Assembly: GCA_913055615.1 (NCBI GenBank)
Contig: CAJXKK010000022.1
Location: forward strand, 1 to 44,605
DNA length: 44,605 nucleotides
Source: an uncultured Ectothiorhodospiraceae bacterium
GTDB lineage: Bacteria > Pseudomonadota > Gammaproteobacteria > XJ16 > Halofilaceae
Direction: 5' to 3'
Shown one piece after another: positions 7,141-25,972 of this stretch (positions are counted from its first letter, which is position 1; each line of letters starts with the position of its first letter). The notes under the pieces are model-generated. The model had not been told where the DNA came from. It searched no databases and saw only the letters and a program-made list of their open reading frames with translations. Both the position numbers and the translations under genes were made by a program.

Positions 7141-7512
7141 TCAGCACGAGGGATCGCCGGCCTCGATATCTTCATACATCTCCGCGCGGAAACGCGGCGT
7201 AGAGATGGCAAGGAATACGAGATCAGCCGCGCCCGTGTTGGTGATCCGCTGACTCGCATCCGGCGGGATCAAGACCACATCGCGAGGCCCCACGGCTTCC
7301 GGCGACCGGTCCCCGATCATCACCCGCCCCTCACCCTCAAGGATCACGTACCGTTCGGTTATACCGTGGAGCCGATGCAGGGGCGTGGTTACACCCGGCT
7401 CGACCCGGGCCCGGACGATCGAGGCCGCGTCGTCATCGGCACTGTTCCACCACTCGGTGATGTGGCAGCGCTCTTCCCCGGTCAAACAACTGCGCTCCCT
7501 GCTCGAGAACAA
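7141..7512 (-). CDS. Cupin-domain protein
   Basis: A small (123-residue) single-domain cupin. Cupin motif 1 is visible as PGVTTPLHRLHGITERYVIL with G(E)GRVMIGD after it, and motif 2 as GPRDVVLIPPDASQRITNTG. Only some of the usual metal ligands are present: the His of LHRLH and the Glu of TERYV are there, but the motif-2 His is replaced by Gln (DASQR), so metal binding may differ. No ATG is available in frame; the frame is closed by a stop at 7528-7530. The TTG at 7512 with GGCGGA about 9 bases upstream is the likely start. Function unknown. Confidence 0.75.
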   Translation of the reverse strand: MFSSRERSCLTGEERCHITEWWNSADDDAASIVRARVEPGVTTPLHRLHGITERYVILEGEGRVMIGDRSPEAVGPRDVVLIPPDASQRITNTGAADLVFLAISTPRFRAEMYEDIEAGDPSC

Positions 7513-7649
7513 CAGCGAGATCCGCCGTCACCTCAAGGCGGCTCTGTCCCGGCATCTTATCGGCAAGCTGGTCACCACAAACCGCAATCTCGCCGACTCC
7601 CGTCGCGGGCTGGCCGGAGAACGACTGCCCCCGGCTGAATCCAATCGAG

Positions 7650-14673: not shown

Positions 14674-15078
14674 TCACTGCACGAGGAGCAGATAGCGCGC
14701 GTAGCCCGTTTTCACCGGATGCGGCGCCATCCAGATGAGCCCGCGCTCGCGTAACACCGACAGTACACGGCCCAGGGCGTCCGGAGCGAGACCCGTGCAG
14801 CGGCGCAGATCGGCGTGCCCGATCCAGCCGGCCGCGCGTCGCCGGGCGCGCAATTTGTGTATGGCAAAGAGCACGCTGAATTCGGTCGTATCAAGATCTT
14901 CGCGCTGCAGCAGCCATTCCGTCACCGCGTCATTACCCCGCTCGGGGGCCTCGGACGGGGTCGGAGGGGCGGCGGCACCGGCGCGGGCCGACGCGGGCAT
15001 CCTGGATGCAGCGACGGTCCTCAGGGCGGTCTGGCCATCGCTTCCGGGTTGCGTGCGGGTGTGCGGATATTCGGGCAT
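14674..15078 (-). CDS. Small putative winged-helix protein behind a cobalamin riboswitch
   Basis: A 134-residue protein. The first 50 residues are disordered-looking (Pro/Ala/Thr/Arg). The remainder, TTEFSVLFAIHKLRARRRAA then HADLRRCTGLAPDALGRVLS and VLRERGLIWM, reads like a winged helix-turn-helix: helix, turn, recognition helix, then a basic wing. A role as a DNA-binding regulator is therefore inference from pattern. The ATG at 15078 has GGAGGAG directly upstream. It is the first coding region downstream of a promoter and complete cobalamin-riboswitch aptamer on the same strand, so adenosyl- or methylcobalamin should control it. I do not recognise the gene as part of B12 biosynthesis or cobalt transport. 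Confidence 0.65.
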   Translation of the reverse strand: MPEYPHTRTQPGSDGQTALRTVAASRMPASARAGAAAPPTPSEAPERGNDAVTEWLLQREDLDTTEFSVLFAIHKLRARRRAAGWIGHADLRRCTGLAPDALGRVLSVLRERGLIWMAPHPVKTGYARYLLLVQ

Positions 15079-15103
15079 GGCTCCTCCAGATCGAACCGGC
15101 TCA

Positions 15104-15293
15104 AGGAGGAACCAACGCGTTGCGAGGACGGGAGAACGGATTCGTGGTGCCCTGCGAGGGCGAATCCTGCGTGCATCTCGGCCTCGGACCTTTGACGCGA
15201 AGGTTCCGGGCGGCCCCGCCATCAGCGGGCCGATCCTGCGAGGTGTTCGGGCTCAACGGGCGTGCGTGCCCGTCATACCGTTGCGCGACAGCC
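15104..15293 (-). repeat. 190-bp repeat, copy 1 (riboswitch 3' half plus leader)
   Basis: This segment aligns without gaps to 25045-25234 in the same orientation; I count roughly 28 differences in 190 positions (about 85% identity). Flanking DNA does not match. It spans the 3' part of the cobalamin aptamer and about 130 bases of downstream leader. The conserved region therefore is not just the ligand-binding core but includes the expression platform. Confidence 0.85.
15138..15167 (-). terminator. Leader hairpin, candidate expression platform
   Basis: Read on the minus strand, GGATTCG and CGAATCC form a perfect 7-bp outer stem. An inner CCCT-CGC-AGGG hairpin lies between them. GTTCTCCC follows, only weakly U-rich. 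It sits between the cobalamin aptamer and the start codon. In copy 2 the outer stem keeps six of seven pairs. It could be the riboswitch-controlled terminator, but a strong U-tract is lacking. Confidence 0.4.
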
Positions 15294-15352
15294 CCGGATT
15301 CTCACCGGTGTTCCCCTCGTGCGCCCCATATCCTGGGTGCGCGATCAGGACG
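15232..15352 (-). promoter_or_regulatory. Cobalamin riboswitch (aptamer)
   Basis: On the minus strand the conserved core blocks of the cobalamin aptamer occur in order: GGGAACACCGGTGAGAATCC (15315-15296), CTGTCGCGCAACGGT (near 15291-15277) and GAGCCCGAACACCT (15254-15241). The 5' TCCTG at the start of the transcript can pair with CAGGA after the last block to close P1. These match the consensus GGGAA-GGTG-AATCC ... CTGTC-CGCAACGGT ... GAGCCCGAAGACCT. One position of the last block differs (C for G). The switch should turn expression down when cobalamin is bound; whether it acts on transcription or translation here is not clear. Confidence 0.85.
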
Positions 15353-15357
15353 TTACC

Positions 15358-15386
15358 AATATATAGCGCCCTCGGTCAGGCGTAAA
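15358..15386 (-). promoter_or_regulatory. Sigma70-type promoter for the riboswitch leader
   Basis: Minus strand: TTTACG (15386-15381), 17-bp spacer, TATATT (15363-15358). Transcription would begin around 15350, exactly where the P1 stem of the aptamer begins, which supports both calls. Confidence 0.6.
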
Positions 15387-15439
15387 GCCATGGGCGATAT
15401 GCGGCCGCGAAGTGCTCGCGCCGAACCCGAGCGGGCGGA

Positions 15440-15977: not shown

Positions 15978-16661
15978 CTACTCGGCGCCTGAAGATCCGC
16001 CGTCTTCGAGGCGGGCGGCGAGGTCCGCCACGATGCGCTCCAGGCGTTCGACACGCTGTGCGAGATCGTCCGCGTCCGGGCCCGCCACAGGCGCCGGGTC
16101 CCCGGCGTTGACGCGCGGGTCTGGCGCCGCCACCGGCCCCGGCTCCCCGGCCTCGCTACCCAGGCGATGCGCCCAGCGCGACTCCCGCTTGCCGGGTTCG
16201 CGCGGCAGGCATTCGACCAGCGCGCCGTCTTCGTGCGCCGCGAGGGTCTGCAGCGTCGATTCGACGGCATCGATGTCGGCGAAGGCGACCATGCGCTGTG
16301 CGCGGTTGCGCAGTTCGCCCGGCGTCTGTGGCCCGCGCAGCAACAGCAGGGCGAGCACCGCGAGCTGCGCCGGCGGCGCCTTGAGGACGCTGCCAGGGGC
16401 GCGCCCGAGGCGATGCTCGAACTTGCTGACCCGGCCGCCGCCGGACGACGCCTGGCGCACGAGACCGCGCCGGGTCAGTGCCGTCACGGCCTCACGCACG
16501 TCCGCTTCCGCCAGCGCCATCACCGGATCGCGATTGCTCTTCTGGTTCGCGGCGGTAACCAGTCCGTTGATCGACAGGGGATACTGGTCCGGCGTGGTCG
16601 CCTCCTTCTCCAGCAAACACCCGAGGACGCGGAGTTCAACCGCAGTGAGATCCCGATCCAT
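15978..16661 (-). CDS. yceH: YceH family (DUF480) protein
   Basis: A 227-residue protein starting MDRDLTAVELRVLGCLLEKE, then TTPDQYPLSINGLVTAANQK, which is the diagnostic YceH/DUF480 N-terminus. The fold is two tandem winged helices (about 1-80 and 90-165). Compared with E. coli YceH there is a Pro/Gly/Ala-rich linker and a terminal heptad-like segment (DLAQRVERLERIVADLAARL) that should form a short coiled coil. Its function is unknown. The ATG at 16661 has a perfect GGAGGT 8 bases upstream; a TTG precedes it by one codon. It diverges from the nitrilase-family gene. Confidence 0.92.
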   Translation of the reverse strand: MDRDLTAVELRVLGCLLEKEATTPDQYPLSINGLVTAANQKSNRDPVMALAEADVREAVTALTRRGLVRQASSGGGRVSKFEHRLGRAPGSVLKAPPAQLAVLALLLLRGPQTPGELRNRAQRMVAFADIDAVESTLQTLAAHEDGALVECLPREPGKRESRWAHRLGSEAGEPGPVAAPDPRVNAGDPAPVAGPDADDLAQRVERLERIVADLAARLEDGGSSGAE

Positions 16662-16849
16662 CAACTGTTACCTCCGTCGTTCGCGCCTTCGCTCCGGCGC
16701 GCTGCGTGGCGGCGGAAATTACCCGCCCGTGTGCGCATGCGCAAGGCGTCGACGCGACCGGCATCGAATGGGCTGAACGGCATGTACTTCGGCAAGCGCT
16801 TCGGTAGTGTAATCTGCCCCCCTGCTGAACGGGGATGCCGGAATCCTGC

Positions 16850-17647
16850 ATGAACGAACCCGCACCACTGACGGTCGCCGCCTTCCAGTACACGGCCCGG
16901 GACGAGGATGCCGCCGCGCGGCTCAAGCGCCTGGACGGGGCGGCCCACGAGGCCGCGGAGCGCGGCGCGCGCCTGCTCGTCACGCCCGAGGTATTCGTGT
17001 CCGGGTACGGCGGGATGCCGGGTCGTATCCACGCGCGCGCCGAACCGGCCGACGGCCCCTCCGCCCAGCGCGCCGCGGCGATCGCCCGCGACCACGGCAT
17101 CGCGATCGTGCTCGGTTACCCCGAGGCCGCCGACGGCGTCGTCTACAACGCCGCGCTTTGCATCGCGCCGGACGGCACCCCGCTCGCCAACCACCGCAAG
17201 CTGGGTCTGTCGGGCACCGACGAGCAGAGCACCTACGCGCGCGGTGATGCCGTGACGCTGTTCGAGCTCGACGGCCACCGCATCGGCGTGCTGATCTGCT
17301 ACGACGTGGAGTTCCCCGAATTGGCCCGTATGGGCACACTCGCCGGCGCCACCACCTTTGCGGTCCCGACCGCACTGGTCTCCCGCTGGCCGGTGGTCGC
17401 CGAGAAGATGATCCCCACACGCGCGCTCGAGAACGGGGTCTGCGTCGCTTTCGCGAATTACACCGGCAGCGAGGATGGGCTCGAGTACCTCGGCTCGAGC
17501 CGTATCGTCGGACCGACCGGTGAGGACCGGATACGCGCGGAGCGGGGAGAAACGGTGATCGTCGCCGCCATTGAACCGTCAGCGGTGGCGACGGCACGCG
17601 CGCGCCTCCCCTATCTTGCGGATCGCCTCACGTTGCCGGATTCGTAA
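16850..17647 (+). CDS. Carbon-nitrogen hydrolase (nitrilase superfamily amidase)
   Basis: A 265-residue cytosolic amidase. The catalytic triad is complete: Glu in LLVTPEVFVSGY, Lys in ANHRKLGLSG and Cys in VLICYDVEFPE. Length and the presence of the second Glu region (EKMIPTRALENGV) fit branch members acting on small amides such as omega-amidase, N-carbamoyl compounds or aliphatic amides; the precise substrate is not visible. Start: I prefer the ATG at 16850 (MNEPAP) with GGAA 7 bases upstream; another ATG lies 15 bases earlier. It is 97 bases upstream of the iron ABC ATPase but the intervening DNA contains a Fur-like box, so it is probably transcribed separately. Confidence 0.9.
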   Translation: MNEPAPLTVAAFQYTARDEDAAARLKRLDGAAHEAAERGARLLVTPEVFVSGYGGMPGRIHARAEPADGPSAQRAAAIARDHGIAIVLGYPEAADGVVYNAALCIAPDGTPLANHRKLGLSGTDEQSTYARGDAVTLFELDGHRIGVLICYDVEFPELARMGTLAGATTFAVPTALVSRWPVVAEKMIPTRALENGVCVAFANYTGSEDGLEYLGSSRIVGPTGEDRIRAERGETVIVAAIEPSAVATARARLPYLADRLTLPDS

Positions 17648-17691
17648 AGACCCGCAGGCTCACTCGCTGATTGCGAACCGTTGCGGTCCGC

Positions 17692-17710
17692 ATTTCTGTT
17701 ATCGTTATCC
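17692..17710. promoter_or_regulatory. Candidate Fur box upstream of the iron ABC ATPase
   Basis: On the minus strand the 19 bases read GATAACGATAACAGAAATG. The first twelve match the Fur hexamer array GATAATGATAAT at ten positions; the third hexamer is poor. It lies 35 bases before the ATPase start codon, where repression of an iron transport gene would be expected. Confidence 0.45.
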
Positions 17711-17744
17711 CCCCTTCGAGACAACGGTAACGTGCCCGGCCATC

Positions 17745-18884
17745 ATGGCGACCCGACCCCTGCCACAGACTCCCGAATCGAGCACCGATCCCGGCGACGG
17801 CGCCGCCGAATCGACCGTGCTGGAGATGCGCGGGATCCGCCACCATTTCGGCGACCTGTGCGCCGTCGACGGCGTCGACCTGGACGTCAAGGCGCGGGAA
17901 GTCGTCTGCCTGCTGGGACCATCAGGCTGCGGCAAGACCACGCTGCTCCGCCTGGCGTCCGGGATCGAGCCCCTCCAGGAGGGCGCGATCCACATCGCGG
18001 GGCGCTCCATGAACCCGGGCGCCGCCGGCCGCGACATTCCGCCTGAGCGGCGCAACGTCGGCCTGATGTTCCAGGACTCGGCACTGTTCCCGCACCTCGA
18101 CGTCCTGGACAACGTGGTCTTCGGCCTCGATGGCCTCGGCGCGCGCGAACGCGGGCGCCGCGGTCACGCGCTGCTGCGCCAGCTCGGCATGGACGAGTAC
18201 GCGCACACCCATCCGCACATGCTGTCCGGGGGCCAACAGCAGCGCGTGGCCCTCGCCCGCGCGCTCGCACCCTCACCGCCGCTGATGCTGCTCGACGAGC
18301 CCTTCAGCGGGCTCGACGCGCGGCTGCGCGACCAGGTGCGCGACGACACGCTGCACACCCTCAAGGAGGTTGGCAAGGGCACGCTGCTGGTCACGCATGA
18401 CCCGGAAGAGGCCATGTTCATGGCCGACCGCATTGCCCTCATGCGCGACGGCCGGATCGTCCAGATGGGCCGGCCCATCGACCTCTACTGCCATCCCGTC
18501 GACCCCTTCGTCGCCACCTTCTTCGGCGACGTCAACCGCATCGACGGTGTCGTCGAGGGCGGTTCCGTGCAGACCATCGCGGGTAGCATCGAAACGCCCT
18601 ACATCGCGGATGGCACGGCGGTCGAGGTGCTGATCCGCCCCGAGGCCATCCACCTTGTCCCCATGGGCGCCCCCGACGAATCCGGTGGGCACGACACCAG
18701 CCACGTAATGGTCTCGCGCCTCCTCGGCCGCACCAGCCTGATCCACGTCTGCGCGCACGGCATGGACGGCGCAGAGGAGCACCTGCACTCGCGGATGCCC
18801 GGCGTCTTCCTGCCGCAAGAGAACCAGCCGGTCATGCTGCAGCTCGACCGCTCCCAGGTATTCGTGTTCCCGCGCAGCGCCTGA
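17745..18884 (+). CDS. fbpC: Fe3+ ABC transporter ATP-binding protein
   Basis: A 379-residue ABC ATPase of the FbpC/FutC iron type. It shows Walker A GPSGCGKTT, Q-loop region NVGLMFQDSALFPHL, signature LSGGQQQRVALARALA, Walker B LMLLDEPFSGLD and the H-loop VTHDPEEA. A C-terminal TOBE-like domain follows (DVNRIDGVVEGGS onward, with VEVLIRPEAIHL). It would power ferric ion import through the permease encoded convergently at 18921-20627. A short disordered N-terminus (about 30 residues) precedes the domain. The ATG at 17745 was chosen because the domain starts soon after; no strong ribosome binding site is visible. A Fur-like box sits just upstream. The gene is unusually separated in orientation from its permease and binding protein. 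Confidence 0.9.
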   Translation: MATRPLPQTPESSTDPGDGAAESTVLEMRGIRHHFGDLCAVDGVDLDVKAREVVCLLGPSGCGKTTLLRLASGIEPLQEGAIHIAGRSMNPGAAGRDIPPERRNVGLMFQDSALFPHLDVLDNVVFGLDGLGARERGRRGHALLRQLGMDEYAHTHPHMLSGGQQQRVALARALAPSPPLMLLDEPFSGLDARLRDQVRDDTLHTLKEVGKGTLLVTHDPEEAMFMADRIALMRDGRIVQMGRPIDLYCHPVDPFVATFFGDVNRIDGVVEGGSVQTIAGSIETPYIADGTAVEVLIRPEAIHLVPMGAPDESGGHDTSHVMVSRLLGRTSLIHVCAHGMDGAEEHLHSRMPGVFLPQENQPVMLQLDRSQVFVFPRSA

Positions 18885-18920
18885 AAGCCGCTACCGGAAA
18901 GCGCGTGCGCTCTGCGTCGC

Positions 18921-20627
18921 TCAATTCCTTGGCCGGGAGCCACCCGGCCGCGATCGGCCCATCGCCCGGCTGAGCAGGATCACGGGCACGATACCGACGG
19001 CGACGATCGCCAGCGACGCCGTCGAGGCCTCGGCCAGGCGCTCATCGGAGGCGAGTTCGTGGGCCCGGATGGCCAGGGTGTCGAAGTTGAAGGGCCGCAG
19101 GATCACGGTCGCCGGCAGCTCCTTCATGACATCGACAAAGACGAGAATACCCGCGGCGAGCAGGCTGCTGCGCATGATGGGTGCGTGGACCAGCCGCAGG
19201 GTCCGGCCCGCCGTCTTGCCGAGCGTGCGCGACGCGGCATCCATGCTGGGCGTGACCTTCTCCAGGCTCGCCTCGATGGCGTTGTAGGCCACGGCGAGGA
19301 AACGCACCACATAGGCGTAGACCAGCGCGACCATCGTTCCGGTCAGGATCAGTCCGGTGCTGATGCCGAAGTGGTCACGGAAGAAAGCGTGGATCGCCTG
19401 GTCCACCGCCCCCAGCGGGATCAGTATGCCGACCGCGATCACGGAGCCGGGAACGGCGTACCCCATCGCCGCGATCCGCGCGGCGAACCGCGTCCCCCCG
19501 CTTTGCTGCAAGCGCACCCCGTAACTCAACAGAAGCGCCAGCGTCACGGCGAGCGTGGCCGAGACGACGGCCAGGATCAGGCTGTTGCCTGCCATGTCGA
19601 TAAAGCGCCCACCGAGCAGGTCATCGCCGTCGTGCAGCGTCATCCACAGAAGGAGCGCCCCCGGGAGGAGGAAACCAACGGCGATCGGTGTCGCGCAGGC
19701 GAACCAGGCGAGTGCCGCCCGCGCACCGCAGAGCGGGAAGCGCGGCAATTCCCGATAGCGCGACGAGGTGTGGAAGTAGCGCGCCCGGCCCCGCGACCAG
19801 CGCTCGGCCAGTACGAGCAGGATCACGAACGTCAGCAGGCTCGCCGCCAGCTGGGCCGCCGCGACGGGCTCGCCCAGGCCGAACCACGTTCGGTAGATCC
19901 CGGTGGTGAAGGTATCCACACCGAAGAAGTGGACCGCGCCGAACTCGTTCAGCGTCTCCATCAGCACGAGCGCCGTTCCGCCGGCGATCGCGGGGCGCGC
20001 CAGCGGGATCGCCACGCCGAAAAGCAGACGCGTGGGCGTGCGCCCCAGGGTCCGGCCGACCTCGAGCACGCAGGCCGACTGCTCCAGGAATGCGGCGCGC
20101 GTGAGCAGATACACGTAGGGATAGAGCACGAGCGCCAGCAGGACGATGGCGCCGCCGAGCGAGCGGATATCGGGGAACCAGTAATCGTGCCGCGTCCAGT
20201 CGAACAACTCGCGCAGGCCCGTCTGCACGGGACCGGTGAACTGCAGGAAGTCGGTGTAGGCGTAGGCGATGACGTAGGTCGGCACGGCCAGCGGCAGCAG
20301 CAGCGCCCACTCGAAGATCCGCCGCCCGGGGAACCGGCACATGACCACGAGCCAGGCGCTACCCACGCCGACAATGAATACCAGTACGCCCACGCCCGTG
20401 GCGAGGATCGCGGTATTGATCAGGTAGCGCGGCAGGACCGTAGCGGCCAGGTGGTTCCAGACCTCGGGCGCCGGCACGAAGACATGGGCCAGAACAGCCA
20501 GGATCGGCAGGGCCACCAGGCCCGCGATCAGCCAGGTGAAGCCGGTCCACGCGCCGAGTTCCGCGAGTGCGCGCCGCCAAAAGGCGCTGAAACGGTACAG
20601 ACTGGCGCTGCTCACGGCCGGTCGCAT
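18921..20627 (-). CDS. fbpB: Fe3+ ABC transporter permease, fused two-domain
   Basis: A 568-residue inner-membrane permease with two internal repeats of the binding-protein-dependent permease domain, about twelve membrane helices in all. The EAA-loop equivalents are EVGRTLGRTPTRLLFGVAIP in the first half and DAASRTLGKTAGRTLRLVHA in the second, which dock to the ATPase. This single-chain duplicated layout is typical of FbpB/FutB ferric permeases. I chose the ATG at 20627 (MRPAVSSASL); a further ATG lies 78 bases upstream but adds an unlikely Cys- and Arg-rich leader. It follows the binding-protein gene on the same strand after a 355-base gap containing a strong hairpin. Confidence 0.9.
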   Translation of the reverse strand: MRPAVSSASLYRFSAFWRRALAELGAWTGFTWLIAGLVALPILAVLAHVFVPAPEVWNHLAATVLPRYLINTAILATGVGVLVFIVGVGSAWLVVMCRFPGRRIFEWALLLPLAVPTYVIAYAYTDFLQFTGPVQTGLRELFDWTRHDYWFPDIRSLGGAIVLLALVLYPYVYLLTRAAFLEQSACVLEVGRTLGRTPTRLLFGVAIPLARPAIAGGTALVLMETLNEFGAVHFFGVDTFTTGIYRTWFGLGEPVAAAQLAASLLTFVILLVLAERWSRGRARYFHTSSRYRELPRFPLCGARAALAWFACATPIAVGFLLPGALLLWMTLHDGDDLLGGRFIDMAGNSLILAVVSATLAVTLALLLSYGVRLQQSGGTRFAARIAAMGYAVPGSVIAVGILIPLGAVDQAIHAFFRDHFGISTGLILTGTMVALVYAYVVRFLAVAYNAIEASLEKVTPSMDAASRTLGKTAGRTLRLVHAPIMRSSLLAAGILVFVDVMKELPATVILRPFNFDTLAIRAHELASDERLAEASTASLAIVAVGIVPVILLSRAMGRSRPGGSRPRN

Positions 20628-20982
20628 CGAAACGGGGTTACACCGGAGGGGGCGGCCGGGTGGGCGCCCGTACGCGTGCATACAACACGCGCCGCCGTGG
20701 TCCATTGCCTACCCGTGGCCCCGGTCATGAACAGGAATCCAGTCATTCGTCGATGAAACGTGGGCGCGTGGACCGACGCGGAACGAATGCTCGCGCATAT
20801 CGGCGGCAGTGGACACGCGCGTGGTCGGTGCTTCGCTATGCGGCGTGGACGCGGTTATCCGGCCAGTGTCGCCGAGCCCCGCGAACGGTGCAAGACACGG
20901 CCCGCCAGCGAGGGTGACAGAGACGGGCGGGGCCGGTCGATCGACCGGCCCCGCCGCCCTCATTGCCGTCTGGAAGCCGGAC
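20628..20982. other. Spacer between iron binding-protein and permease genes
   Basis: About 355 bases without a supportable gene. The only clear structure is the 30-base perfect palindrome at 20926-20955 near the end of the binding-protein gene. The rest shows no domain-bearing reading frame or obvious promoter. Confidence 0.4.
20926..20955 (-). terminator. Perfect 30-base palindrome downstream of the iron-binding protein gene
   Basis: GGCGGGGCCGGTCGA (20926-20940) is followed with no spacer by its exact reverse complement (20941-20955), giving a 13-bp GC stem with a GATC loop. It lies 27 bases past the binding-protein stop codon. The downstream bases (minus strand) are CGTCTCTGTC, not a clean U-tract. 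Such hairpins often cap and stabilise binding-protein mRNA and reduce read-through into the permease. Confidence 0.65.
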
Positions 20983-21996
20983 TCAGCGCCAGCCGACCCG
21001 GTCCATGATCCGGACCGCCGTCGGGTTGTTGCCGCCCAGTTCGCTGACGTTCACATCGTCGATGACGATATCCCGCCCCCAGTCCTGCAGGACCTCGGGC
21101 CGTGGCGCGCCCGGGACCACCGGGTACTCGTTGTTGCCTTTGGCGAACAGGGCCTGAGCCTCGTCGCTGACCATGAACTCGAGCAGCTCCACCGCCGCTT
21201 CCCGGTTGGGTGCGCCGTCGACGATACCTGCGCCGCCGATGTTGGCGTGCGCGCCCCGGCCATCCTGGTTGGGGAAGATCACGCCAACCTGCTCGGCGAC
21301 CTCTCGGTCGTCCGCGTCATCGGAGTGCAGCAGGCGCAGGTAGTAGTAATGGTTCGCCACCGCGAGTTCGCACTCGCCGGCCGCGGCACCGCGGATCTGG
21401 TCGGTATCGCCACCCTGTGGCGAGCGCGCCAGGTTGTCCACGAGGCCCTGTGCCCACTCCGTCGCCTTGTCCTGGCCGTGTTCGGCGATGATCGAGGCCA
21501 TCAGCGACTGGTTGTAGATATTCGACGACGAGCGGATGCAGACCTGGCCCTCGAAGCGGTCGTCGGCCAGATCCTCGTAGCGCTCCAGCTCGGCCGGGTC
21601 GAAATTCTCCTTGTTATAGAACACCAGACGCAGGCGCTGGCTAAGGCCAAACCAGAGCCCTTGCGGATGGCGCAGCCGGGACGGAATGCGCTCGCTCAGG
21701 ACGTCGGATTCCGTCGACTGGAAGATGCCATCTTCCTCGGCGCGCCAGAGCCGTCCGGCGTCGACCGTGATCATGATGTCGGCGGGACTGGCATCGCCTT
21801 CGCGCTTGATGCGCTGGATCAACTCGTCGGAATCGCCCTCCAGGACGTTGACCTCGATGCCGGTCTTCTCGGTGAACAGATCGTAGAGCTGATCGTCCGT
21901 ATCGTAATGCCGCGCCGAGTAGACGTTCACGCTCTCGGCCGCGACTGGCGCGGCCAGCGCGGTCATGGCCAATCCTATAAGCCAGCGGTTCATCAT
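20983..21996 (-). CDS. fbpA: Fe3+ ABC transporter periplasmic binding protein
   Basis: A 337-residue exported protein. The signal peptide is MMNRWLIGLAMTALAAPVAA, cut before ESVNVYSARHY. The mature protein is a type II periplasmic binding fold with iron-ligand candidates: the VYSARHYDTD N-terminal loop and the tyrosine cluster NHYYYLRLL at about 217-225, the position of the paired Tyr ligands in FbpA/FutA. GIVDGAPNREAAVELLEFMV and the C-terminal NNEYPVVPGA segment are also family hallmarks. The ATG at 21996 has GGAGGT 6 bases upstream. A Fur-like half-site lies about 40 bases upstream. It delivers ferric iron to the permease encoded downstream. Confidence 0.93.
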   Translation of the reverse strand: MMNRWLIGLAMTALAAPVAAESVNVYSARHYDTDDQLYDLFTEKTGIEVNVLEGDSDELIQRIKREGDASPADIMITVDAGRLWRAEEDGIFQSTESDVLSERIPSRLRHPQGLWFGLSQRLRLVFYNKENFDPAELERYEDLADDRFEGQVCIRSSSNIYNQSLMASIIAEHGQDKATEWAQGLVDNLARSPQGGDTDQIRGAAAGECELAVANHYYYLRLLHSDDADDREVAEQVGVIFPNQDGRGAHANIGGAGIVDGAPNREAAVELLEFMVSDEAQALFAKGNNEYPVVPGAPRPEVLQDWGRDIVIDDVNVSELGGNNPTAVRIMDRVGWR

Positions 21997-22325
21997 CAGG
22001 GTACCTCCACCATTACCGATAAGGAGCGCTCGACAATAAATGAGAATAACTCCGATTTGCAATCACAAAACGATGACATCTCACGCCGTGGTGATGACGC
22101 TTCACCAATCTGTCGGATCACGCGGGGCTGTACACCCTCTGCGCACGACAGAGCACAACTCGATTGCGAGGTGTGCCGCACGACCGGAACGTGATTGTCC
22201 GCGCAGCTCGCTTTCCGGCTCACGTGGTCATGCATTTTGCGCACCCATCAGTCGCACTTGCCTCGTCAGGTAAAATGCGACGAGGCGGTTGTCCGGGCCT
22301 CTTACGCACGGGATCGGGAGTCGAC
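21997..22325. other. Divergent intergenic region, iron binding protein / BCCT
   Basis: About 329 bases between divergent start codons, noticeably AT-richer near the iron gene. It carries a Fur-like motif at 22036-22054. Close to the BCCT gene, GGTAAAATGCG (near 22266) could contain a -10 hexamer (TAAAAT), without a convincing -35. Confidence 0.4.
22036..22054. promoter_or_regulatory. Candidate Fur box upstream of the iron binding protein
   Basis: ATAAATGAGAATAACTCCG contains TGAGAAT, a strong match to the left half of the Fur 7-1-7 consensus (TGATAAT-N-ATTATCA); the right half is weak. It is 40 bases from the binding-protein start codon. Together with the box near 17700 it suggests Fur control of the whole iron uptake set. 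Confidence 0.4.
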
Positions 22326-23984
22326 ATGGAACCCACTGCGCGGCCGCTGCTGTTCGGCCTGTTCCGGCGCACAAGCCCGCCCGTGTTCGCGGCCTCGGCG
22401 CTGGTCATGTTCGGGCTCGTGGTGTTCGTCCTGCGCGACCCCGCGCGCGCCGAGACCGTGTTCGCGCAGGTGCAGCTGTTCATCGGCGTGCACTTCGGCT
22501 GGGTCTATCGCTTCACGGTCACCGCGGTGCTCGCATTCGCGATCCTGCTTCTGGTCTCACGCCACGGGCGCATTCGCCTCGGCCGCCCCGACGAGAAGCC
22601 CTCTTTCAGCTTCACCGCGTGGTTCGCCATGATGTTCAGCGCCGGCATGGGCATCGGGCTGTTGTTCTGGAGCGTGTCCGAGCCGCTGACGCATTTCCTC
22701 GAACCGCCATTCGCGGACGCCAGGACGCGCGCGGCCGCCGCCGAGGCCATGCGCTACACCTTCTTCCACTGGGGCTTCCACGCCTGGAGCGTGTACGCGG
22801 TGGTCGGCCTGGCGCTGGCCTACTTCGGTTTCCGTCGCGGGCTGCCGCTGACCATCCGCTCGGCCCTGTTCCCGTTGCTCGGGCGGCGCGTGTTCAGCTG
22901 GCCGGGACACGTGATCGACGTGGTGGCGGTCTGCGCCACCATGTTCGGCGTCGCCACCTCGCTCGGGCTCGGCGTGATCCAGCTCAACGCGGGGCTTGCG
23001 TACCTCACCGGCTTCCCGGTAGCCGTCGGCGTGCAGATCGCGATCATCGCGGTGATCACGTCGCTGGCGACAATCTCCGTGGTCCGCGGGCTCGACCGCG
23101 GCATCCGCATGCTGAGCCAACTCAACCTGGCGATCGCCGGGGCACTGCTGGTCGCGGTGCTGCTGCTTGGGCCAACCATATTCCTGTTCGATTTCTTCGG
23201 CCAGACCCTCGGTCAGTACCTGCAGCACATCGTCGGTATGTCGCTCTGGGCGGACGTTCTGCGTGACAGCGACTGGCAGCGCCAATGGACGACATTCTAC
23301 TGGGCGTGGTGGATTTCCTGGTCACCGTTCGTGGGCATGTTCGTCGCGCGCGTCTCGCGCGGGCGCACGATTCGCCAATTCCTGCTCGGCACGGTCGGTG
23401 CCGCTTCCGGGGCAACGCTGTTCTGGTTGAGCATATTCGGCGGCACCGGCATCTGGCTGGAGATGGTCCAGGACGCCGGCATCGCGGCCGATGCCGCCGC
23501 CGACGTCAGCCGCGGCCTGTTCCTGATGCTCGAGCAGCTGCCCTTGTCGACGTTGCTGGCGACGGTGGCCACCCTGTCGCTCGTTACATTCTTCGTCACC
23601 TCGTCCGATTCCGGCAGTTTCGTCATCGACATCATCACCGCGGGCGGTGATCCCGACCCGCCGAAGGCCCAACGGGTGTTCTGGTCGATCATGGAGGGGA
23701 CGATCGCGGCGACGCTGTTGCTCGGCGGCGGACTCGAGGCCCTGCAGACGGCGACCATCGTCTCCGGTCTGCCGTTCGCGATCATCCTGCTGCTGCTGTG
23801 CGCCGGTCTCTGGCGATCCCTGCAGCGTGAGGCCGAGCAGGGTGCACTCGCCGATCCGGACGTCGGCGAGCCGCTGCCGAGCAAGGCCGAAGCGCGCGAG
23901 CGCGAGCGCAAGGCGCAGAGCGGCCGCCCCGCCAACGAACTCGAGCCTGGCGCGGGGGGCCCGGCGGCGGGTGGCAATCCGTAG
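22326..23984 (+). CDS. BCCT-family glycine betaine/choline-type transporter
   Basis: A 552-residue sodium- or proton-coupled osmolyte carrier with twelve membrane helices. Diagnostic blocks: FSAGMGIGLLFWSVSEPLTH (the GMGIGL motif and the substrate-binding Trp), and around residue 320 WTTFYWAWWISWSPFVGMF followed by ARVSRGRTI, the BCCT signature with the aromatic box. FVTSSDSGSFVIDIITAGG marks a sodium-site region. The C-terminus has a charged tail of about 60 residues (Glu/Arg/Ala rich), which in BetP-like proteins senses osmotic stress. The ATG at 22326 has GGGAG 5 bases upstream. The likely substrates are betaine, choline or ectoine; this fits a salt-adapted host. Confidence 0.92.
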   Translation: MEPTARPLLFGLFRRTSPPVFAASALVMFGLVVFVLRDPARAETVFAQVQLFIGVHFGWVYRFTVTAVLAFAILLLVSRHGRIRLGRPDEKPSFSFTAWFAMMFSAGMGIGLLFWSVSEPLTHFLEPPFADARTRAAAAEAMRYTFFHWGFHAWSVYAVVGLALAYFGFRRGLPLTIRSALFPLLGRRVFSWPGHVIDVVAVCATMFGVATSLGLGVIQLNAGLAYLTGFPVAVGVQIAIIAVITSLATISVVRGLDRGIRMLSQLNLAIAGALLVAVLLLGPTIFLFDFFGQTLGQYLQHIVGMSLWADVLRDSDWQRQWTTFYWAWWISWSPFVGMFVARVSRGRTIRQFLLGTVGAASGATLFWLSIFGGTGIWLEMVQDAGIAADAAADVSRGLFLMLEQLPLSTLLATVATLSLVTFFVTSSDSGSFVIDIITAGGDPDPPKAQRVFWSIMEGTIAATLLLGGGLEALQTATIVSGLPFAIILLLLCAGLWRSLQREAEQGALADPDVGEPLPSKAEARERERKAQSGRPANELEPGAGGPAAGGNP

Positions 23985-23997
23985 GGGGCGGCTGTCC

Positions 23998-24978
23998 CTA
24001 GTGTCCGCTGCCGATCAGCACGCCGGCGGCGAACACGAGTGCGCCGCCGAGCACGACCTGGAAGCTGGCGCGCAGGAAAGGGGTATCCATGTAGCGATTC
24101 TGGATCCAGGCGATCGCCCACAGTTCGACGAACACGATCGCGATCGCGGTCACGGTCGCCGTCCAGAAGTCCGGAATCAGGTAGGGCAGCGCATGGCCCA
24201 GTCCGCCGAGGGTGGTCATCACACCCGATGCGACCCCGCGTTTGAGCGGTGAGCCGCGGCCCGATATCTCGCCGTCGTCCGAGGCCGCCTCCGTGAAACC
24301 CATCGAGATACCGGCGCCCACGGAGGCGGCAAGGCCGACGGTGAACGTGGTCCAGGTATTCTGCGTCGCGAAGGCCGTCGCGAAGATCGGCGCCAGGGTC
24401 GACACCGAGCCGTCCATAAGCCCCGCCAGTCCGGGCTGGACCCAGGTCAGCACGAACTGGCGGTGGGCGACGCGGTCCTCCTCCTCGCGCTCGTCCTCGC
24501 CCAGATTGTGCGAGGCCAGCCGATCCGCGGTCTCACCGTGCTTGACCTCCGCGACGGCGAGGTCGCCCAGCAACTTGCGCGTGTCGGCATCGCCCGTGCG
24601 TGCGGCCGCCTTGCGATAAAACGCGGCGGCATCGCGCTCCATCATCGCCGCCTCGTCGCGGATGCGCTCGAGCCCGAGGTTTTCCACCAGCCATACCGGC
24701 CGGCGCGTATAAAAGCCCGAGATATGCTCACGCCGGATCAGCGGGATCACCTCGCCGAAGCGGCGCTTGAACATATCGATCAGGCGCTGGCGATGACCGT
24801 CCTCTTCGGCGGCCATACCATCGAACATCCGGGCGCTGGCCGGGTAGTGCTCACGCAGGCGGTCGGCGTACGTGCGATAGATCTGCGCGTCGTCCTCCTC
24901 GGCATAGATCGCGAGTGCTACGATCTCGCGCTCGCTCAGGTCGTCGAACCGCCGCCGCGGGGAAAAGCCCGGGATCAT
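23998..24978 (-). CDS. mbfA: MbfA-type ferritin-like/VIT1 iron exporter
   Basis: A 326-residue fusion of an N-terminal ferritin-like (rubrerythrin-type) four-helix domain (about 15-170) and a C-terminal VIT1/CCC1 membrane domain (about 180-326). Diiron ligands are seen in YAEEDDAQIYRTYADRL, MAAEEDGHRQRLIDMF, ERDAAAFYRKAA and VAEVKHGETADRL. The membrane part has the family block PGLAGLMDGSVSTLAPIFAT. This architecture matches MbfA, which exports iron under iron excess or peroxide stress in other proteobacteria. The ATG has AAGGA 6 bases upstream. Upstream lies a truncated copy of the cobalamin-riboswitch leader, and CCCCTATACTGGGG, which contains a possible -10 box. Confidence 0.92.
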   Translation of the reverse strand: MIPGFSPRRRFDDLSEREIVALAIYAEEDDAQIYRTYADRLREHYPASARMFDGMAAEEDGHRQRLIDMFKRRFGEVIPLIRREHISGFYTRRPVWLVENLGLERIRDEAAMMERDAAAFYRKAAARTGDADTRKLLGDLAVAEVKHGETADRLASHNLGEDEREEEDRVAHRQFVLTWVQPGLAGLMDGSVSTLAPIFATAFATQNTWTTFTVGLAASVGAGISMGFTEAASDDGEISGRGSPLKRGVASGVMTTLGGLGHALPYLIPDFWTATVTAIAIVFVELWAIAWIQNRYMDTPFLRASFQVVLGGALVFAAGVLIGSGH

Positions 24979-25044
24979 GGGAGTCCTTCACGGTCGCTGA
25001 AAAACGCCCCCAGTATAGGGGACAGCAAGGCCACGATCATGCAA

Positions 25045-25234
25045 AGCAGGAACCAACGCGCTGCGAGGACGGGAGAAAGGATCCGTGGTGCCCGGTGAAG
25101 GCGAATCCGGCGTGCATCTCGGCCTCGGACCCTGGAGGCGAAGGTTCCGGGGCAGCTCCGCCAGCGGCGGGCCGATCCTGCGAGGTCTTCGGGCTCGACG
25201 GCCACGATTGCCCGTCACACCGTTGCGCGTCAGG
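25045..25234 (-). repeat. 190-bp repeat, copy 2 (truncated cobalamin riboswitch leader)
   Basis: This segment aligns gaplessly to 15104-15293. On the minus strand it keeps GCGCAACGGTGTGACGGGC and the block GAGCCCGAAGACCT, which is closer to the B12 consensus than copy 1, plus the downstream leader. The 5' half of the aptamer (GGGAA-GGTG-AATCC) is absent; in its place is the 3' end of the NnrU gene, whose stop codon overlaps the repeat edge. It therefore should not bind cobalamin normally. It runs toward, and ends 66 bases before, the mbfA start codon. A relic of a duplication is the simplest reading. Confidence 0.8.
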
Positions 25235-25808
25235 CGACGACCGACACGCCAATCAGCCAGGTGTGCAGCCAGAGCACGAACGCGACGTAGACCGCGAGCC
25301 CACCCACGACCGCCACGGCATCATTGAAGCCCGTCGCGGGCAGGGTCGGCGCTGGTGCCGGGCGCGACGAACGGCGCTTGACGGCGATCCGGTCCACGAC
25401 CGCCCAGGCGAGGAACGCACCGAAGAGCGCGACATCGACCGCCTGGCCGTTCATCAGCAGATGCGCCAGTGCCCAGATTTTCACCGCCACCAGCATCGGG
25501 TGCTTGACCTTCGCGCGGATCCGCCCCGGCAGGTACGTCGCCAGGAGCAGCGGAAACACGGGTACCAGCAACAGCATGCCCACGTGCCGCAGCCAACCCG
25601 GCGGCGTGTAGAGCACGGACGAGGTCCAGCGGAGGTCGCCGTAGCCCTTGATCAGCAGCACGAGGCCGACGATGGCGACGAGCCCGTACACCGCCTTCCA
25701 GGGTATCGCCCCCATGCGCAGCACCATCTGATTGCGCCAGCCTGGAGCGACGATCGCGACCGAATGGATACCAAAGAACAGGGCGATACCGGCGACGAAT
25801 TCAAACAT
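25230..25808 (-). CDS. NnrU family membrane protein
   Basis: A 192-residue protein with five or so hydrophobic helices. FFGIHSVAIVAPGWRNQMVL near the N-terminus, then GDLRWTSSVLYTPPGWLRHV and AKVKHPMLVAVKIWALAHLL, match the NnrU family (relatives of isoprenylcysteine methyltransferase-type membrane proteins). NnrU is linked to denitrification in some alphaproteobacteria, but most homologues, including those next to isoprenoid or metal genes, are uncharacterised; no nitric-oxide genes are nearby. The start has AGAGGT upstream. The stop codon overlaps the edge of the truncated riboswitch repeat. Confidence 0.85.
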   Translation of the reverse strand: MFEFVAGIALFFGIHSVAIVAPGWRNQMVLRMGAIPWKAVYGLVAIVGLVLLIKGYGDLRWTSSVLYTPPGWLRHVGMLLLVPVFPLLLATYLPGRIRAKVKHPMLVAVKIWALAHLLMNGQAVDVALFGAFLAWAVVDRIAVKRRSSRPAPAPTLPATGFNDAVAVVGGLAVYVAFVLWLHTWLIGVSVVA

Positions 25809-25972
25809 GCTGACCTCTCCGCGAGTCTGGGCGCCGGAGCACGGCTATCCCATCCGCCCGGCGCCGCCATGGTACAGCAGCGCGCGGCGCACGGATCACC
25901 CGCTGGCTCCCCACTGCCGGCACCACGGTGTTAGCGCGCTTATTCACCGACCCGGCGGGCACCATGACCGGA

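Follow-up and report, generated by a model that had tools for sequence, protein, structure and literature searches.

A segment between nnrU and mbfA (copy 2) is very probably a decaying fossil: a complete cobalamin riboswitch would once have stood directly after nnrU. It was found in the window (the whole stretch of 44,605 nucleotides that was analyzed), which also holds an intact counterpart (copy 1) 10 kb away. The features that define copy 2 and its surroundings are the following.

25230..25808, minus strand: nnrU (PF07298, E=1.8e-52), directly upstream of copy 2 and also of the complete riboswitch in the sister genome G002
25225..25232, minus strand: deletion scar TGACGCGC across the nnrU stop codon, one member of a pair of near-identical 8-mers
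25044..25233, minus strand: copy 2, riboswitch remnant between nnrU and mbfA, consisting of the 3' half-aptamer and the expression platform
23998..24978, minus strand: mbfA iron exporter (rubrerythrin plus VIT1; NF045676, 561 bits against a cut-off of 450; PF02915, PF01988)

The similarity between the two copies was far above chance. On the minus strand, positions 25233-25044 paired with 15291-15104, with 162 of the 186 aligned bases identical and one 1-nt gap in the alignment, and BLASTN of copy 2 against copy 1 returned 87% identity (E=1e-59). The repeat finder reported two blocks, 15103-15210 versus 25044-25151 (90% over 108 bases) and 15208-15291 versus 25150-25233 (85% over 84 bases), the second with its register offset by 1 base from the first. 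Thus, the match of about 85% described in the first-pass annotation stands, but it is not ungapped. Relative to copy 1, copy 2 begins in the middle of the aptamer, and both the promoter and the first half of the aptamer core (GGGAAC-GGTG-AATCC) are missing, in agreement with the earlier statement that the GGGAA-GGTG-AATCC half is absent; Rfam gave no Cobalamin match in copy 2 even at E<=10. Copy 2 lacks the complete core, with half of the aptamer gone, and hence is no member of RF00174; it also has neither a promoter of its own nor a coupling to the Shine-Dalgarno sequence of the next gene. Its overlap with nnrU is limited to the last bases of that gene (stop codon at 25232-25230), and it ends 65 bases before the start of mbfA (24978).

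A complete riboswitch stands at exactly the same place in G002, where the gene order is nnrU, riboswitch, a small winged-helix-like gene, yceH (DUF480), an NTF2-like gene, and an MFS gene. Copy 2 was 87.6% identical to this complete version. In G002 (L024), TGACGCGC is located at 7403-7410, at the nnrU stop (context CCTGACGCGCTGGG), and TGTCGCGC lies 130 bp away at 7533-7540, inside the aptamer (context 130 bases on, GGCTGTCGCGCAACGG). The junction of copy 2, CCTGACGCGCAACGG, is exactly the product of a deletion between these two 8-mers, of which copy 2 keeps one. Therefore, a deletion between short direct repeats took the promoter and the 5' half-aptamer; recombination or slippage between TGACGCGC and TGTCGCGC would have removed 130 bp containing both. 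The scar and the arrangement in G002 together make it likely that copy 2 descends from a complete riboswitch and was not inserted as half a copy. The first-pass annotation correctly placed the end of nnrU next to the truncated aptamer, but that end did not replace the missing half, as 130 bp were lost and nnrU precedes the complete riboswitch of G002 too.

The two sides of the G002 arrangement are split between two loci in the source genome: at one, copy 2 and then mbfA come after nnrU; at the other, yceH and the NTF2-like gene precede copy 1 and the winged-helix-like gene comes after it. Thus, each side was kept at one place. We suggest that a complete riboswitch originally stood directly after nnrU, as in G002 now, and that a local duplication generated a second riboswitch and winged-helix-like gene, which would have survived 10 kb away as copy 1. 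A tandem duplication of the riboswitch-gene-yceH-NTF2 segment, followed by the loss of one gene copy and the insertion of other DNA, would yield exactly the observed gene order. The original riboswitch would have lost its gene side and also its promoter and 5' half-aptamer, with mbfA now adjoining what is left. The extra losses and insertions that this history needs count against it, as does the rearrangement of the surrounding 10 kb compared with G002, in which the DNA between the copies matches several other places. The stretch 16640-25880 (~9 kb) is a mosaic relative to G002, and its ABC-transporter block and BCCT transporter match two other places (contig C4). The sites shared in a four-sequence comparison do not order the duplication relative to the divergence from G002. 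Of the recent duplication with trimming that had been proposed at first, the trimming is borne out by the deletion scar and the full-length riboswitch in G002, whereas the recency is not, as the copies differ by 13%.

What copy 2 has lost can be read from copy 1, which retains the following features.

15380..15388, minus strand: GCTTTACGC, the first bases of copy 1 common to G002, including the -35 element
15358..15386, minus strand: promoter-like TTTACG-N17-TATATT, retained by G002 and G001 but deleted in copy 2
15221..15364, minus strand: complete cobalamin aptamer RF00174, the match extending into the -10 element
15284..15290, minus strand: L5 loop TGTCGCG, predicted to form a kissing loop with L13 CGCGTCA
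15185..15208, minus strand: P13 hairpin with L13 loop CGCGTCA, the same loop as in G002 and G001
15105..15113, minus strand: anti-Shine-Dalgarno GGTTCCTCC
15079..15087, minus strand: Shine-Dalgarno region GGAGGAGCC of the regulated gene
14674..15078, minus strand: gene for a small MarR-like winged-helix-like protein, genus-restricted

The covariance-model score of copy 1 for RF00174 was 33.6 bits, above the gathering cut-off of 31.5; G002 scored 35.8 bits, and G001 fell slightly under the cut-off at 29.3. In G001 the promoter-like site has the form TTTACC-N17-TATATT. The L5 loop of copy 1 (UGUCGCG) pairs with the P13 loop (CGCGUCA) at 6/7 positions, with one U-U mismatch, and L5:L13, P13, an alternative long helix, and the pairing of anti-Shine-Dalgarno with Shine-Dalgarno can all form in the three full-length relatives (copy 1, G002, and G001), in G001 with some one-sided substitutions. 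No pair of the platform model was altered on both sides, so covariation speaks neither for nor against it. Over the leader stretch including the platform, copy 1 and G002 were 93% identical, compared with 64.7% (330/510) at the four-fold degenerate sites of five neighboring genes, and therefore selection acts on the whole leader of the intact copies, and strongly on the expression platform. The conservation over 130 bases beyond the aptamer that the first-pass annotation had pointed out is thus real, and these bases read as a conserved translational expression platform, inherited by both copies as parts of the same leader, not of riboswitches in unrelated genes. A coding origin of the conserved 130 bases was considered and rejected: the reading frames of the copies differ through the 1-nt gap, and the substitutions follow no clear codon periodicity.

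The intact copies most likely act as translational off-switches in which cobalamin represses translation. With the ligand present, the L5 loop would kiss L13 and fix P13, and GGUUCCUCC would be freed to pair with the Shine-Dalgarno region GGAGGAGCC. With the ligand absent, GGAACC of P13 would pair with GGUUCC, and CGCGU with ACGCG, instead, and translation would proceed. In this, copy 1, G002, and G001 (the last scoring a little under the cut-off) resemble the translational env8 type of RF00174, in which the bulge in the L5-L13 kissing-loop helix matters (PMC10907184): the L5 loop and the downstream P13 loop are complementary, and the anti-Shine-Dalgarno sequence can sequester the Shine-Dalgarno sequence. 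Unlike in the env8 type, the aptamer of copy 1 is weak and short and fronts a genus-restricted gene, and its Shine-Dalgarno sequence lies some 100 bases past P13, not in the P13 loop.

The protein encoded behind copy 1 has 134 amino acids, no Pfam match, and a distribution limited to this genus; the winged-helix-like fold is a guess from weak PDB matches (E 0.2-0.7). The promoter-riboswitch-gene unit (14674-15388) is kept in all three species despite a changing upstream neighbor, which is nnrU in G002, the NTF2-like gene at copy 1, and a carbonic-anhydrase-like ORF in G001.

In copy 2, several parts of this platform have decayed.

25126..25149, minus strand: decayed P13 hairpin, its stem still pairing and its loop changed from CGCGTCA to CGCCTCC
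25079..25108, minus strand: hairpin C (GGATTCG...CGGATCC), pairing kept via G-U
25044..25054, minus strand: GGTTCCTGCTT, the former anti-Shine-Dalgarno, mutated and with its target missing; the homology ends here

Copy 2 has an altered L13 loop, whereas all three intact leaders share the same one; its anti-Shine-Dalgarno sequence carries a C to G change, its Shine-Dalgarno sequence is gone, and the long-range helix has lost one pair, with GGAACC:GGTTCC intact. Copy 2 is accordingly predicted to be incapable of the proposed switching steps. Its unique changes numbered 15 versus 5 in copy 1 (14 versus 5 without the scar base; chi2 4.26, exact two-sided P 0.064), and its fold was not stabler than shuffled sequences (z +0.87, compared with -1.64 for copy 1). 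The plain reading of these changes is that copy 2 was constrained up to the truncation and has probably been drifting since. However, its identity to G002 is far over the neutral level, and its substitutions broke only 2 stem pairs versus 5.3 expected at random (P 0.053), most being rescued by G-U; because of this, the constraint may have ended only recently or may partly persist, which speaks against a simple fossil.

The same two observations, with the intact GGAACC:GGTTCC pairing, are what favor the reading that the retained half was co-opted as a cis-acting RNA element in the mbfA leader or at the nnrU 3' end, for example one stabilizing, terminating, or translationally gating the transcript without sensing cobalamin. 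We consider this co-option improbable; that the platform half was retained as an RNA element with no ligand, to act on nnrU or on a horizontally acquired iron exporter, seems marginally less probable still. The pairing bias may predate the truncation, and the unremarkable fold and the mutated L13 and anti-Shine-Dalgarno sequences argue against a retained role, as does the sequence between copy 2 and mbfA, where one further feature is found.

25000..25024, minus strand: terminator-like hairpin followed by a T run (TTTTT), with TATACT in the loop region

The 35-base stretch containing this hairpin has a predicted energy of -12.4 kcal/mol. TATACT can alternatively be read as a near-consensus -10 element. 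A hairpin that terminates transcription would sever nnrU and copy 2 from mbfA, and a -10 element at TATACT would place the start of mbfA transcription downstream of copy 2. In both cases, the mbfA transcript would mostly lack copy 2. No promoter-like site was seen in or near copy 2, nothing similar to the element was found upstream of mbfA in six other genomes, and the 65-base spacer had no match in the sister genomes. None of the papers searched joins MbfA with a riboswitch; the known control of mbfA, in Bradyrhizobium, is exerted by Irr at the promoter (PMC4902296). The suggestion that the retained part still serves mbfA as an RNA element was therefore not upheld, with the aptamer half, the promoter, and the Shine-Dalgarno target gone and a terminator-like hairpin preceding the gene. 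Neither sister genome (G001, G002) has mbfA itself, and across the class the gene is rare, at about 7 of 369 genomes; it was therefore probably acquired from elsewhere. The MbfA proteins of the other genomes are 57-67% identical to this one, a pattern that suggests horizontal spread.

Returning to the fossil reading, two further origins of copy 2 were weighed. A partial new copy, inserted after nnrU by gene conversion or template switching and never complete there, would fit the 3' limit of the homology, which has no recognizable cause, and the two substitutions and 2-base loop difference common to copies 1 and 2 would fit copying within the lineage. It is nevertheless very unlikely, given that in G002 a complete riboswitch follows nnrU at the very same position and that the junction equals the deletion product of two near-identical 8-mers.

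Least probable of all is a mobile-like or dispersed unit, such as a short interspersed repeat, bringing riboswitch sequence to new genes, although the riboswitch-gene unit does stand behind different neighbors at copy 1, in G002, and in G001. The BLASTN count of copies and following genes suggested in the first-pass annotation gave just two in the source genome (G000; 3.0 Mb, 87 contigs), followed by mbfA (copy 2) and the winged-helix-like gene (copy 1), and the two have unlike boundaries, not the several copies with common boundaries of a dispersed repeat. Among 56 relative genomes, the element occurred only in two other species of the genus (G001 and G002), with one copy each. The 369 genomes of the class yielded no further matches beyond a few dozen bases, and plasmid and phage collections none. 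Within the collections searched, the element occurred in just three genomes, all of one genus, which disposes of the earlier idea of a widespread mobile-like unit.

As a partial aptamer left after the degradation of one copy, copy 2 is similar to the ghost aptamers of singleton glycine riboswitches, which retain a structural role beside a working aptamer (PMC6944388). In contrast to those, copy 2 has no working aptamer beside it, the intact copy being 10 kb away. Copy 2 reads as a pseudogene of a known riboswitch class, and copy 1 is a member of that class with an unusual target gene. The history of this clear pseudogene (duplication, then deletion between short direct repeats) appears readable, with a sister genome showing the prior state, and a remnant of this kind can pass for a novel leader of whichever gene lies downstream. 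Upstream of a genus-specific regulator-like gene, the intact copies define a conserved platform that probably responds to B12, and this putative B12-controlled orphan regulator deserves attention.
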